A stretch of 36,835 nt of DNA, from positions 1 through 36,835 of the forward strand of contig JAHISN010000057.1 in NCBI GenBank assembly GCA_018818265.1, in the 5' to 3' direction. Source of the stretch: Patescibacteria group bacterium (GTDB lineage: Bacteria; Patescibacteriota; 4484-211). The position numbers and the translations under genes were made by a program. Shown piece by piece: positions 1 through 4,642 of the stretch. The first letter of the stretch is position 1; every line of letters begins with the position of its first letter. The notes under the pieces are model-generated. The model did not search any database, had not been told where the DNA came from, and worked only from the letters and a program-made list of their open reading frames with translations.

Positions 1-3
1 ACA

Positions 4-64
4 GTGAAGAACCCCGCGCTGCGACAGCCATGCGGCATCGCGTGGAGAGCGCGGGGCTTCTTCC
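4..64 (+). repeat. Structured hairpin repeat, copy 1 (core 21-47 GCGACAGCCATGCGGCATCGCGTGGAG)
   Basis: Stem GAAGAA-CCCCGCGCT (7-20) pairs with AGCGCGGGGCTTCTTC (48-63) around a 27-nt core shared with copies at 123-149 and 4599-4625 (inverted). Confidence 0.8.
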
Positions 65-67
65 TAA

Positions 68-197
68 GGAAAAACCAGAACATTCACAGCGTTGTTTGAA
101 GAACACCATTCATCACCACTCTACGACAGCCATTCGGCATCGCGCGGAAAGGGTGGTGGCACCATTCCAAAAGAATGGTGTGCCTGGTTTTTCCACG
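68..197 (+). repeat. Structured hairpin repeat, copy 2, nested in further inverted repeats upstream of nusB
   Basis: Core 123-149 ACGACAGCCATTCGGCATCGCGCGGAA; stem CACCACTCT(114-122)/AGGGTGGTG(150-158); ACACCATTC(103-111)/GAATGGTGT(173-181); GGAAAAACCAG(68-78)/CTGGTTTTTCC(184-194). Confidence 0.75.
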
Positions 198-227
198 TGA
201 AACCGTAAAGCTGGTAACTGATTAACC

Positions 228-701
228 ATGAAAACTTCTAACGATCCCAGACACGTTGCCCGTCGATTAGCGTTACAAGTCCTTTTTGCATGGGAAGGCA
301 ATCGCAGACTGGCGCGGTGGCTACCGGGACAAACAGAAGCGAGGTATAAATGCGCGCGGCAGTTGTACCGTGAATGGACACATCGTAAATATACTGCCGA
401 AGAATATTTTGATTACCAACTGCTGCAATTGCTAGTTAAGAGAATAGTTAGGAAAGCCGAAAGGTTTGATGAATTGATCGCGGATTCGGCACCGGAATGG
501 CCACTTGACCAAATTGCGCCTATCGACCTGATAATCCTTCGCATTGCTGTGGCTGAACTAACACAAAAAGGTGATTTGCCTTACAAAGTAGTTATCGACG
601 AGGCAGTTGAATTAGCTAAAGAATTTGGCGGAGATAACAGCAGCAAATTTATTAACGGCGTGCTAGGGACAATAGTAGAAAAATTAGGGAAAGTGAAATA
701 A
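228..701 (+). CDS. nusB: Transcription antitermination protein NusB
   Basis: ORF with NusB features: RRLALQVLFAWE N-terminus, APIDLIILRIAVAEL, VVIDEAVELAKEFGGDNSSKFINGVLG. Confidence 0.93.
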   Translation: MKTSNDPRHVARRLALQVLFAWEGNRRLARWLPGQTEARYKCARQLYREWTHRKYTAEEYFDYQLLQLLVKRIVRKAERFDELIADSAPEWPLDQIAPIDLIILRIAVAELTQKGDLPYKVVIDEAVELAKEFGGDNSSKFINGVLGTIVEKLGKVK

Positions 702-783
702 GTTTGTAGGAAGTAAGTTGTCGGTTGTAGGTTTATCATGTTCCTTTACCTACTACCTACTATCCACCACCTACCACCAAGTC

Positions 784-1476
784 ATGGATTTTACTAATCT
801 CGAAAAAAAAATAAATCTTGAATTTAAAAACACCGAGCTACTGCTTCATGCTTTTGTTCACCGCTCATACCTTAATGAGCACCGCAACTTCAAGCTGGAT
901 TCTAACGAACGGCTAGAGTTTTTAGGCGATGCCTGTCTAGAGTTAGTCGTTTCGGACTATCTCTACAAAAAATACCCTGGAGAAGACGAAGGCATCCTTA
1001 CCAACTACCGTTCGGCTCTTGTCAATACCGCATCATTAGGTGAAACTGCGCGCGAGTTAGGACTGGGAGAATACTTATTGCTCTCCCGCGGCGAAGAGGA
1101 TGGTGGCGGACGTGATTCGGAACACTTGCTGGCGAATACATTCGAAGCCATGTTGGGTGCCTGTTATCTAGAGGCAGGACTGGAAGCGAGTCAAAGAGTT
1201 GTAGAAAAACTACTCTTGCCCAAATTGGAACATATAATTGAGAAGAAACTCTACCATGATGCGAAATCCCACCTACAAGAGCTAACTCAGGAATTGGTTT
1301 CTATCACGCCGATTTATAAAATTCTTTCCGAGTGGGGACCAGATCATTCTAAGGAATTCAAAGCAGGCGTATATTTAGAAAATAAATTGATTGGAGAGGG
1401 AGAAGGCAACAGTAAGCAAAGGGCAGAGATCGACGCCGCAGAAAATGCCCTTGAAAAGTTGGACGAAAACATGTAG
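784..1476 (+). CDS. rnc: Ribonuclease III
   Basis: NERLEFLGDACLELVVSDYL signature and C-terminal dsRBD; start probably at 784 (MDFTNLEKK) rather than 718. Confidence 0.95.
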   Translation: MDFTNLEKKINLEFKNTELLLHAFVHRSYLNEHRNFKLDSNERLEFLGDACLELVVSDYLYKKYPGEDEGILTNYRSALVNTASLGETARELGLGEYLLLSRGEEDGGGRDSEHLLANTFEAMLGACYLEAGLEASQRVVEKLLLPKLEHIIEKKLYHDAKSHLQELTQELVSITPIYKILSEWGPDHSKEFKAGVYLENKLIGEGEGNSKQRAEIDAAENALEKLDENM

Positions 1477-1595
1477 AATAGCATCTCAGCAATATAGCTA
1501 AGCAGCTACACAGTTACACATTAATATAAAGACGCAGTCTTTCAAGCGTTTGGCTATGAAGCTGAGTAGTTGCGAAGCTGACTAGCTAATATACC

Positions 1596-1820
1596 ATGCT
1601 CAAAATCAGACTTTCCCGAACGGGGCGCAAAAACTATCCATCATATCGTATTGTAGTAACCGAAGCGAGTCGAAAGCGCGATGGCAAGGTTACTGAGACT
1701 ATCGGTCACTACAACCTACAAACTGATCCCCCGCAGATTAAGATAAAGAAAGAGCGGTTAGAATATTGGATAGCGAAGGGTGCCCAAATGACGGACGCGG
1801 TAAGGAAACTTTCAAGCTGA
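1596..1820 (+). CDS. rpsP: 30S ribosomal protein S16
   Basis: MLKIRLSRTGRKNYPSYRIVVTEASRKRDGK...IGHYNL. Confidence 0.97.
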   Translation: MLKIRLSRTGRKNYPSYRIVVTEASRKRDGKVTETIGHYNLQTDPPQIKIKKERLEYWIAKGAQMTDAVRKLSS

Positions 1821-1863
1821 TAACCCCAGCACCATACGGTGCGGGGCAGGCTGGAAACTGATT

Positions 1864-2121
1864 ATGCAAGATTTAATTGAATTTATACTCAAACAAATAA
1901 CTAACCACCCAGACGAAATCGAGGTTTCTGTTGAGAAGGAAACTGATATTAATCAAGTAAGGTTTAATGTCCTTTTAAATCCTGAGGATATGGGTATTGT
2001 TATCGGCAAGGATGGGCGCACGATTAAATCTATCCGCAATCTGGTTAATATCATCGCCTTGCCAAAGGGTATAAATATTTATTTGGATGTCAAAGAGAAG
2101 GGGAAAATTGCCGCGCTGTAG
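1864..2121 (+). CDS. khpA: KH-domain RNA-binding protein (KhpA/YlqC-like)
   Basis: Single KH domain with GIVIGKDGRTIKSIRNLV, downstream of rpsP. Confidence 0.9.
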   Translation: MQDLIEFILKQITNHPDEIEVSVEKETDINQVRFNVLLNPEDMGIVIGKDGRTIKSIRNLVNIIALPKGINIYLDVKEKGKIAAL

Positions 2122-2172
2122 CCCTGCCTCGCCGGCAGGCGGGTTTAGCATAAACGGGCTAGCGAGGCTGAA
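2122..2172. repeat. Palindromic repeat at convergent khpA/pilO junction
   Basis: CCTGCC-TCGCC-GGCAGG-CGGG plus TAGCCC/GGGCTA and GTTTA/TAAAC pairing; 23-nt unit nearly repeated at 13354-13376. Confidence 0.7.
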
Positions 2173-2173
2173 T

Positions 2174-2884
2174 TTAGAACGGATCCTCTTTCCCGCTGCC
2201 AATTTCACTTTCCCCTACTTCACCTATTGTCGATTGTATAAAAGTGCCGTAAGAATTTAACTTGGATACCTGAGCTAATATTTCCTCATCGGCCGTACCC
2301 AATCCGATTAACGCCTCTTCCACCGCTCCAAAGCTTTTTGGTAACGGAAGATATGGAAACAGAACATCAGCTGACACATGTAATTTATCCTCATCACTTT
2401 CAATTTCCAAATTATTTAACGAGAGGACACGTTTGGCCCGCTCGGTGTTTTTAAGAAAAGCAACAATTTGCGAAGCATCACCGTCAACAATAACAGGGAC
2501 TTGTAATACCGCTCCACCACCTTGATTTCCTAAACCTTCGGCGCTACTAACAGCCACACTCAGCGTCCCCAGTTCAACTTGCGAATTTCGCGCCAGACTC
2601 TCCAATGCGGCAAATGCAGTCCATTCATGAGCAAAAGAAGGCAAAGCCTCTTCTAAAATGAGAATACTGGTATCCAATACTGCTTCACTTAATGTGCCTA
2701 AAAGTTCAGCCTTTGGCATTAATTTCCGTTCCAAAAGGATTTCTTTCTCTACAATCTCGGCTTTCATTTGATAACTTTCCCTGACCCATGGGTAAATAGC
2801 AAACATCACCACCCCAAACGAAACAATAGTACAAACAACAGGAAACAAAATAGATGGTTGTTTAAAACTAAAAAATGTTTTCAT
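2174..2884 (-). CDS. pilO: Type IV pilus assembly protein PilO-like
   Basis: N-terminal TM then coiled coil, third gene of a pilMNO-order operon. Confidence 0.72.
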   Translation of the reverse strand: MKTFFSFKQPSILFPVVCTIVSFGVVMFAIYPWVRESYQMKAEIVEKEILLERKLMPKAELLGTLSEAVLDTSILILEEALPSFAHEWTAFAALESLARNSQVELGTLSVAVSSAEGLGNQGGGAVLQVPVIVDGDASQIVAFLKNTERAKRVLSLNNLEIESDEDKLHVSADVLFPYLPLPKSFGAVEEALIGLGTADEEILAQVSKLNSYGTFIQSTIGEVGESEIGSGKEDPF

Positions 2885-3429
2885 ATACTTCTCTCCAATG
2901 TTAATACAAAGACAATCTCATTTTTATCCAGTCTAAAGTCGCACAACTTAACAGTAGTACTCCGTATTTCCTCCCAATCATCAAGTACTGTTACCAAATT
3001 ATCTACCTGTTCAAGGGAATCTGTTTGGGCGACAAGTTCGAAAGTTAATGGAGTATTAACCTGATTTAAAGATAGCATACGCACGCCCGGAGGAAGTTTA
3101 CCATTAATACCGTCAACAAAATCTGCAAAGATTCCGCGCTCAACAAAATGTGTGCTCAGAAATTCAACTTTATCCTTTACAGTTAGTAACTTGCCCTCTA
3201 GTCGACGATTGTCTTCATTGTTTATAAATAAATTCTGTTCGATAATCTGAACCTGAAGACCATTCAAACGCTCACGCACCTGGCTATGATAAGTAAAAAC
3301 AACCAACACAGCACCAGCTAGTAGAAGAAGTTCACCAACGCAAATAAGATATATCCTTAGTAAGTGAGCTTTTTTACGATCACTTGCTTGATACTCTGTA
3401 GGAAGAAGATTAACACCTGAAGGGTTCAT
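2881..3429 (-). CDS. pilN: Type IV pilus assembly protein PilN-like
   Basis: VNLLPTEYQ N-terminal motif followed by TM and coiled coil; overlaps pilM. Confidence 0.82.
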   Translation of the reverse strand: MNPSGVNLLPTEYQASDRKKAHLLRIYLICVGELLLLAGAVLVVFTYHSQVRERLNGLQVQIIEQNLFINNEDNRRLEGKLLTVKDKVEFLSTHFVERGIFADFVDGINGKLPPGVRMLSLNQVNTPLTFELVAQTDSLEQVDNLVTVLDDWEEIRSTTVKLCDFRLDKNEIVFVLTLERSI

Positions 3430-4484
3430 ATTCGTTTCAATCCTAAGCCTACCGCCACAGCAAAATGCGTTTGATTTTCGAGACGGTGAACATCTTCCTC
3501 AAACTGCGGTGGCACTTTGACATCAATCCATGGATCAGCAATCTGAACTTCAACTCCCAGGCTTTCCGCAAGATAGACAACCACACCCGGCAAACGTGCC
3601 GTTCCTCCAGTTAAAACCACTCGCTTAACAGGGTGCATAGGTTTCTGAGCCTGATATGATAAAATCGCTTTTTCTATCTCGTTCACAATAATATCAAATA
3701 CCGGCTTAATAACACTAACAACCTTGCCCCCTAATTTGTCTTCTAAAAGCCCATAAGCCCTCTTGTACTCTTCAGCCTGATCCTGCTCAAACCCAAGCTC
3801 ACGAGAAATTACCTTGGCAAGATCACTACCGCTGGTACCAATACTACGAGTGAACTGAATAATACCTTGGTCAACAATACATAAATCTGTAGCTGAAGCT
3901 CCTAAAGAAATAATAAGGGTCACTGGGCAATCTGATCCCTGAGGAGACAATGAACGCGCCATCCCAATAATCTCCGACTCAAAAGCTAATGGTTCCAATC
4001 CGGCCATCCCCAAAATGGTTATGTATCGATCTACAAGAGTTAAAGGGGCAGCAACAAGCAAAATTTTCATCCGCTTGCCTTTACCCCCATCCTGAGTGCC
4101 TGGGACGGTTCCATCTTCTAAAACCATCCAACTAGTCTTGACTTCATCTTTGGGAAGAGGAATAAAACGTTCGACCTCCCATTCCAGAGCGTTATGTAGA
4201 TCCTGCCCCTTAAGCGGGGGAAACTCAATTACACGAGTAAATATTTTAGCTTCGGGAAAAGCAGTAACTACCTTACGCGAGCGTACTTTTGCTTCTTTTA
4301 AAAGCATTTTAATTATTTTAGCAACCTTTTCCTGATCATCCTCTGCTTCTGATTGTAATACATTGAGAGGAGTATCCACGCTACCAAAAGCAACTAATTC
4401 AGGCTTTCCCTCACGGGGATGTAATATTTCCACGACTTTAAAACTGTAGGAACCAATATCTAAACCTAAAATTTGTTGTGTCAC
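3426..4484 (-). CDS. pilM: Type IV pilus assembly ATPase-like protein PilM
   Basis: Actin-like fold motifs LGLDIGSYSFKVVEI, ALEWEVERFIPLP, VVLTGGTARLPGVVVYLAESLG; GTG start. Confidence 0.93.
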   Translation of the reverse strand: MTQQILGLDIGSYSFKVVEILHPREGKPELVAFGSVDTPLNVLQSEAEDDQEKVAKIIKMLLKEAKVRSRKVVTAFPEAKIFTRVIEFPPLKGQDLHNALEWEVERFIPLPKDEVKTSWMVLEDGTVPGTQDGGKGKRMKILLVAAPLTLVDRYITILGMAGLEPLAFESEIIGMARSLSPQGSDCPVTLIISLGASATDLCIVDQGIIQFTRSIGTSGSDLAKVISRELGFEQDQAEEYKRAYGLLEDKLGGKVVSVIKPVFDIIVNEIEKAILSYQAQKPMHPVKRVVLTGGTARLPGVVVYLAESLGVEVQIADPWIDVKVPPQFEEDVHRLENQTHFAVAVGLGLKRI

Positions 4485-4578
4485 GACCTAATCCTACCTT
4501 CAAATGACAATCACTGTCAATAGCAAGTTGTCCTGTGTGAATAGTAAAAGCAATCCCGCATGAATGCTGTTCTTATTA

Positions 4579-4642
4579 CGTGGAAAAAGCCCCGCGCTCT
4601 CCACGCGATGCCGCATGGCTGTCTCAGCACGGGGTTCTTCAC
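4579..4642 (-). repeat. Structured hairpin repeat, copy 3 (inverted), sense-oriented upstream of pilM
   Basis: Reverse complement GTGAAGAACCCCGTGCT-GAGACAGCCATGCGGCATCGCGTGGAG-AGCGCGGGGCTTTTTCCACG matches copy 1. Confidence 0.8.

Follow-up and report, generated by a model that had tools for sequence, protein, structure and literature searches.

The 36,835-nt window analysed here, which is contig 7 (GenBank JAHISN010000057.1) of the draft genome (1.19 Mb, 89 contigs; genome label G000) of a Patescibacteria group bacterium, contains three copies of a short structured repeat, two of them 5' of a nusB-like gene and the third 5' of a pilM-like gene. A preliminary description had assigned to these copies a 27-nt consensus, a 5' TGAAGAAC, a 3' TTTTTCCACG in copies 2 and 3, and three flanking stems that differ in sequence and nevertheless pair, and it had offered two interpretations: a cis-regulatory RNA or a hairpin mobile element. 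The copies lie where they had been placed, and inspection by eye bears out the consensus, the end sequences and the stems. The question raised by this locus is what kind of element the copies represent, and how stems of different sequence came to surround a common core. We argue that the core is probably a non-autonomous mobile element of 23-24 nt, resembling both REPINs (paired repetitive extragenic palindromic, or REP, sequences) and the small dispersed repeats (SDRs) of cyanobacteria, and that this is the best explanation overall; that the unit is mobile is well supported. A cis-regulatory RNA is unlikely.

A 24-nt unit within unrelated palindromes

The 20-nt core occurs at only three sites in the window, 23-42 and 125-144 on the plus strand and 4604-4623 on the minus strand, and at none in 100 shuffles. 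What the three copies have in common is one 24-nt unit, 5'-CGACAGCCATGCGGCATCGCGTGG-3', the opposite strand of which, CCACGCGATGCCGCATGGCTGTCG, is the constant part across genomes (family A). The flanks are wholly unlike between genomes, yet they form a palindrome once the 24-mer is taken out. The host palindromes (with ^ at the place of the unit) are a GTAG-tagged REP in the window genome (GTAGCGGCTAGACTT^TAGTCTAGC), a repeat in the same-family Patescibacteria relative G009 (GCAGAATT^TATTCTGC), a CGTC-tagged repeat holding two tandem 24-mers in another Patescibacteria metagenome-assembled genome (GTCATTCCGGGCT^TGACCCGGAATC), and repeats in Cloacimonadota (GGGGCT^TGGGAACGAG) and Planctomycetota (CACACCATGTC^GGTATGACGTGG). 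CGTC-tagged repeats act as hosts in genomes G003, G008 and G163. The outer stems differ and still pair because the unit entered different host palindromes, which is how the nested palindromes of the preliminary description arise. The compensating pairs claimed there hold within the 24-nt unit but not for the outer stems.

Copy 1 (22-45, plus strand; covariance-model match of 42.8 bits) has the family A consensus, and its host palindrome at 6-63, evident from sequence and fold, pairs GAAGAACCCCGCGCT (6-20) with AGCGCGGGGCTTCTTC (48-63). A host of the same type surrounds copy 3 at 4590-4634, where sequence and fold place the arms CCCCGCGCT (4590-4598) and AGCACGGGG (4626-4634); the element itself (4601-4624, minus strand; sequence and covariance model) is one base off the consensus (AGACAG...). 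Copy 2 is a diverged family A element, CGACAGCCATTCGGCATCGCGCGG (124-147, plus strand; sequence and covariance model), within a palindrome recognised by sequence at 114-158, with arms CACCACTCT (114-122) and AGGGTGGTG (150-158). Adjoining it at 160-180 is a second hairpin, CACCATTC / GAATGGTG, seen in sequence and fold, that belongs to a larger host repeat ending in TTTTTCCACG (188-197) and has three degenerate relatives elsewhere in the window genome. Folding z-scores of copies 1, 2 and 3 are -5.2, -3.0 and -3.6, and the predicted minimum-energy fold of copy 2 lacks the stem originally drawn for it. Further copies of the core lie elsewhere in the window genome; a covariance model finds about 28 places there at E up to 0.1, many of them matched on both strands, the unit being nearly palindromic.

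Nesting extends well beyond family A. When 129 GTAG-type REP arms were parsed in stretches fetched from the window genome, 80 had a short loop, mostly TT or TC, and the remainder included arms with A, A+B, A+G or D units at the apex and several short inserts of other sequence. These letters denote sister families, described below, which nest reciprocally (B in A, A in B, G in A, and inverted G in G) and to a depth of up to three levels, as in REP > D > B (locus L164), REP > A > B (L163) and B' > A > B (L113, in genome G001). In genome G163 (L278-L285), a family A variant, CCCTGCGATGCCGCATGGCTGTCG, lies within a D-like unit, CACGCCATGGCGG^CATGCCAGGG, in CGTC-type repeats; at L283 the inner right part of the nested unit is absent. 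A fixed orientation relative to the REP tag was expected and then dropped, as the families differ: within GTAG REPs, A faces one way in 12 of 12 non-independent cases, D the opposite way, and G is inverted.

Other inserts at REP apices in these loci have sequences of their own. One of about 30 nt, TTCCGCCAAAGGCGGATCAGCCTCTGGCTGA, forms two hairpins (L170, L194, L199, L200, L208, L209 and L212, all in REPs of the window genome), and a short one of about 19 nt, CACGTNNNACGTGGCAYGC, is found at L043:55, L043:3589 and L190. Family C, TTGCCGYGTACC...GGTACTGCGGT, holds nested inserts in its own loop (L007, L124, L129, L133, L145, L212 and L221). A further family, CCTGCCTG..CAGGCAGG or ACCCGCCTA..GGCGAGGC (L151, L157, L163, L164, L180, L196, L203 and L207), is resembled by a solitary palindrome at 2123-2143 of the window, CCTGCCTCGCCGGCAGGCGGG. 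At a contig end of the window genome (G000:C49:29557-29788, L198) there is a tandem REPIN array with a period of about 93 nt.

Empty sites and an insertion polymorphism

The ends of the unit are defined by sites that lack it. For each insertion a script joined 14 + 14 flank bases, and the joined sequence was sought among the fetched loci. Exact empty paralogous sites, with 0 of 28 flank bases different, were found for A in B (L022 filled vs L107 empty, L033 vs L083, L017 vs L108), for B (L111 vs L231, L106 vs L121), for G in A (L103 vs L005) and for A2, where L225 reads catgccatgccgca[A2]tggcgtggcacttt and L232 reads catgccatgccgcatggcgtggcacttt. In one Planctomycetota host repeat, the filled L226 and the empty L235 agree over 60/60 bases on the left and 52/60 on the right. 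Inserts measure exactly 23 or 24 nt, and bases are neither duplicated nor lost at the joints.

A polymorphism was found at the window locus itself. Contig C12 of the same genome overlaps the start of the window, covering copies 1 and 2 and the first nusB codons with identical flanks. Its copy 2 is longer by exactly 46 nt, amounting to two 23-mers, CTACGCAATGC[CAACGCTATGCAGCATTGCGTAG]TGCATAGCGTTG: a family G unit carrying a nested inverted G, lying where the 5' arm of the A-type copy meets its loop. G and B occupy the same position within A elsewhere in the window genome. C12 otherwise differs from the window by three substitutions, all within the 24-mer, and by one more in the host stem. The left end of the window (window 1-257; G000:C12:1-280) is an assembly break caused by the two nested-repeat alleles 5' of nusB.

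Design of the unit and its sister families

The sister families A, A2, B, D and G share one design, the quasi-palindrome CNACGCNATGCNGCATNGCGTNG. The fit is approximate: B and D have one additional base in the loop, and A has a single bulged base. On either strand, the first 5 nt form an unpaired 5' tag (CNACG) and the rest folds into a 7-bp hairpin whose loop is 4-5 nt long, and the bulge of family A affects one of its two strand folds. The tag and the 3' end of the same element are complementary. Family B, CCACGTCATACCGACATGGTGTGA, was first seen within an A copy of the window genome. As two overlapping hairpins require, the variable positions change jointly, reading G,C,G,C,G in A2 vs A,T,A,T,A in G.

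Covariation supports this design. Among 28 distinct variants, standard pairs occupy 92.9% of pair cells vs 82.6% after shuffling (maximum 86.7%, n=2000); two-sided changes occur at pairs 1, 2, 5 and 7 (4/7 pairs), and pair 4 is a conserved G.U. The covariance model was built from families A and G only, and the other families were aligned by hand for the pair counts; all-family alignments by MAFFT placed the loop gap within the stem. A scan for structure alone, with no sequence specified, returned 16 words at 61 sites in 803 kb of fetched loci, of which 14 words at 59 sites belong to the superfamily, and there were no matches in shuffled windows; the loci had been chosen for carrying such elements, so that the scan speaks to specificity and not to abundance.

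Distribution

An exact-pattern scan of 85,462 genomes found copies in genomes other than that of the window. Family A, at up to 3 mismatches, is present in 3 of 380 genomes drawn from the phylum: the window genome, G009 and G163, the last with eight copies nested in the D-like unit of a CGTC-type repeat. Named metagenome-assembled genomes with family A come from Planctomycetota, Elusimicrobia (same groundwater sample series), Cloacimonadota and Patescibacteria, the last with two genomes that include G009's. In Patescibacteria, Cloacimonadota and Planctomycetota, palindromic repeats unrelated to one another hold identical units. Family B was counted 33 times in the Planctomycetota genome, three times each in the window genome and the Cloacimonadota genome G002, twice in the Elusimicrobia genome and once in G007. 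The identical 24-mers in several phyla and the patchy presence fit horizontal spread.

Searches of phage, plasmid and viral-contig sequences with family A gave only one weak phage match (E 0.6) and one chance viral-contig match, and the same searches with family B and with the 23-nt consensus gave none. Six genome or viral-contig matches with T or A at the variable position look like chance and were left uncounted; most had 2-5 further mismatches to the 24-mer and lacked a host palindrome.

How the unit might move

Elements of the IS200/IS605 type (IS, insertion sequence) transpose as single strands, and a similar route can be drawn for the unit. Either strand, once single, would fold into the CNACG tag and 7-bp hairpin, and a Y1 (HUH) transposase of the RAYT (REP-associated tyrosine transposase) or IS200 type would cut and join the single-stranded unit in trans, the route proposed for REPINs. 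Insertion itself duplicates no target bases. Most insertions lie at the apex of a hairpin already present, or close to it, and the targets are REP palindromes, other repeats and the unit's own sister families, which yields nested palindromes. We regard movement as single-stranded DNA through a Y1 enzyme as plausible, if not quite probable. Y1 genes are present in the window genome and in 10 of 10 other genomes tested. In the window genome, a RAYT gene (L043:2568-3479, in G000:C21) is flanked by GTAG REPINs (GTAGTAGC), and REPIN copies in which A and B units are nested lie within its own reading frame. The closest relative of this RAYT among those met is the sole Y1 gene of the Planctomycetota genome; the Planctomycetota homologue lacks residues 89-228.

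Several observations weigh against this account of the unit and its movement. None of the examined Y1 genes (22 Y1 loci) is flanked by CNACG elements, the sole covariance-model match near a Y1 gene lies inside the L043 RAYT frame, within a REPIN, and genomes G010 and G011 have Y1 genes and no elements. Because no Y1 gene is so flanked and two carriers of Y1 genes lack the elements, we can only infer mobilisation in trans. Furthermore, the empty sites are paralogous except in the C12/window pair, in which gain and loss look alike, and the many copies per genome may stem from few insertions that travelled with the host repeat. Finally, the variants were found partly by sequence similarity, which leaves the search and the pairing statistics to some degree dependent on each other.

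Alternative explanations

An alternative route to mobility would pass through RNA, with a reverse transcriptase returning a transcribed copy of the hairpin to DNA; the SDR study reportedly suggested such a route for the cyanobacterial repeats. The lack of target duplication would suit it. Among the distinct variants, the non-Watson-Crick pairs on one strand are mostly G.U (31 G.U vs 6 C.A, or 12 vs 6 when pair 4, with its conserved wobble, is left out), a bias that suits RNA folding, though G.T pairs form in single-stranded DNA too. This strand bias is weak evidence because the quasi-palindrome lets either strand fold, and no reverse transcriptase is linked to the elements, none having been searched for. 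We consider the RNA route unlikely.

It is less likely still that the core is the conserved apical loop of ordinary REP repeats or miniature inverted-repeat transposable elements, recognised by a RAYT and exchanged between copies by template switching or gene conversion. Many copies in the window genome do sit in the TT/TC loop of GTAG-tagged REPs, and other REP families, such as GTAG-3, have long exchangeable loops (PMC3733652). However, the unit also occurs, with exact ends, in palindromes that bear a CGTC tag or none, in members of its sister families and in reading frames; in addition, empty host copies outnumber filled ones in the window genome, as the count of short-looped arms indicates.

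The idea that the core is a cis-regulatory RNA leader of nusB and pilM fares much worse. In its favour, the predicted folds are stable and the copies lie 5' of both genes. The nusB-like reading frame (228-701, plus strand, ATG at 228) follows copies 1 and 2, and the pilM-like frame (3426-4484, minus strand, GTG at 4484) follows copy 3; both are neighbours lying outside the element, and their distances from copies 2 and 3 are as first described. (The name nusB comes from the preliminary description and gene order, and pilM from that description.) The copies had been taken to be in sense orientation to the next gene, but copy 3 lies between divergent genes, so this holds for pilM and not for its other neighbour. 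Across the window genome, co-directional neighbour genes give 2 sense and 6 antisense copies, and convergent and divergent contexts also occur. Some copies are intragenic: in Elusimicrobia (L026:2348-2371) the 24-mer is in frame within a reading frame of 2034 codons that encodes an MG2 (alpha-2-macroglobulin) domain, adding the peptide DSHAASRG, and in Planctomycetota it is in frame in two trypsin-like proteins and one PMT_2 protein, the homologues of known structure being too distant to prove in-frame insertion. Rfam covariance models gave no match at gathering score, nor at E up to 1. A leader would also have to be reconciled with the sporadic occurrence in the phylum and with the insertion polymorphism of the nusB copy. 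Mixed orientation and insertion polymorphism were both put forward at the outset as signs of a passive DNA repeat, and both were found; covariation is nevertheless present. Taken together, these results make a regulatory leader very improbable, and the alternative first offered beside it, a hairpin mobile element, is supported by precise insertion, nesting and polymorphism.

Equally hard to credit is that the core represents scars or fused ends of a larger REP-targeting transposon of the IS110/IS1111 or IS3 type. Insertion sequences are described as targeting REPs (PMC1525189), but no split halves flank a gene among the loci read, in a search that was not exhaustive, and covarying sister families and reciprocal nesting are unexpected of scars. 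An assembly or library artefact, such as an adapter-like oligonucleotide trapped at palindromes, might be suspected of so short an identical sequence in many unrelated metagenome assemblies, but natural variation with compensating pairs, several related families, copies from independent studies and habitats, and in-frame copies in long genes make it the least credible explanation of all, close to inconceivable.

Comparison with known systems

A literature search on nested micro-palindromes in candidate phyla found no paper. The SDRs that Elhai and colleagues are said to have described in 2008 (Genome Res.) from Nostoc and its relatives are reportedly 21-27 nt long, with compensating hairpins, and occur nested and embedded in mini-transposons; they were reportedly proposed as the smallest mobile elements and confined to a cyanobacterial subgroup. 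Compared by description, the present unit resembles them in its length of 23-24 nt, which falls within that range, in its exact ends, here given by empty sites, in its hairpin with compensatory changes, and in being nested and embedded in larger repeats. Precise insertion is another common feature, as SDR5 inserts precisely between nucleotides 3 and 4 of HIP1 (PMC4390886). It differs in its carriers, which are Patescibacteria, Cloacimonadota, Planctomycetota and Elusimicrobia, with identity across phyla, whereas SDRs are reported from cyanobacteria. It differs also in targeting the apex of palindromes and in being a dual-hairpin quasi-palindrome with a CNACG tag.

Other small palindromes share single features with the unit. 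CGTC-tagged REPs are tagged short palindromes without a known dedicated transposase (Di Nocera 2013, PMC3733652). Their loop of 4-5 nt agrees with that of the unit, but they have a CGTC tag and an 8-9-bp stem in place of CNACG and 7 bp, and CGTC repeats are hosts and not the inserted unit. Rickettsial palindromic elements (RPE) are longer and lineage-restricted; they too are small palindromic repeats in frame inside genes, and have no dual-hairpin 23-mer. RPE-4 and RPE-6 have been recounted as intragenic REPs (PMC3733652). Like IS200/IS605-type (Y1) elements, the unit inserts without target-site duplication, and Y1 cleavage of its hairpin is predicted.

Tentatively, and with less assurance than we attach to the single-strand route itself, these families might form a cross-phylum superfamily of 23-24-nt DNA transposons built from overlapping inverted tagged hairpins, in effect a REPIN compressed to the length of one hairpin, that move as single strands into hairpin loops, spread between phyla and generate multi-level nested palindromes. 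If true, no smaller mobile element that spreads horizontally would be known. The lower size limit of mobile elements, and the means by which the smallest are moved, have been open questions since the cyanobacterial SDRs. The exact ends, the symmetric two-hairpin design, the insertion rule (hairpin apex, no duplication) and a polymorphic locus are now in hand, so that a defined oligonucleotide can be tested against defined candidate transposases. The unit also illustrates a trap for RNA-motif discovery, in that outer stems that look compensating are in fact different hosts.

In structure the unit may be compared with REPINs, whose putative excised intermediates are hairpins with a 5' tail complementary to the REPIN 3' end (PMC3116915). 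The unit likewise has a 5' tag and hairpin, inverted symmetry and a tail complementary to its 3' end; it is mostly intergenic, its carrier genomes hold RAYT genes, and many of its copies have GTAG REPINs as hosts. On the other hand, it measures 23-24 nt vs about 70-110 nt, its tag is CNACG and not GTAG (or GNRG-type), GTAG belonging to the hosts, and no RAYT gene was found flanked by it. Both have two inverted tagged hairpins, but those of the REPIN stand side by side and those of the unit overlap within 23 nt. The unit, whose membership in neither group is established, works like REPINs and cyanobacterial SDRs, and is among the smallest mobile DNA elements seen.

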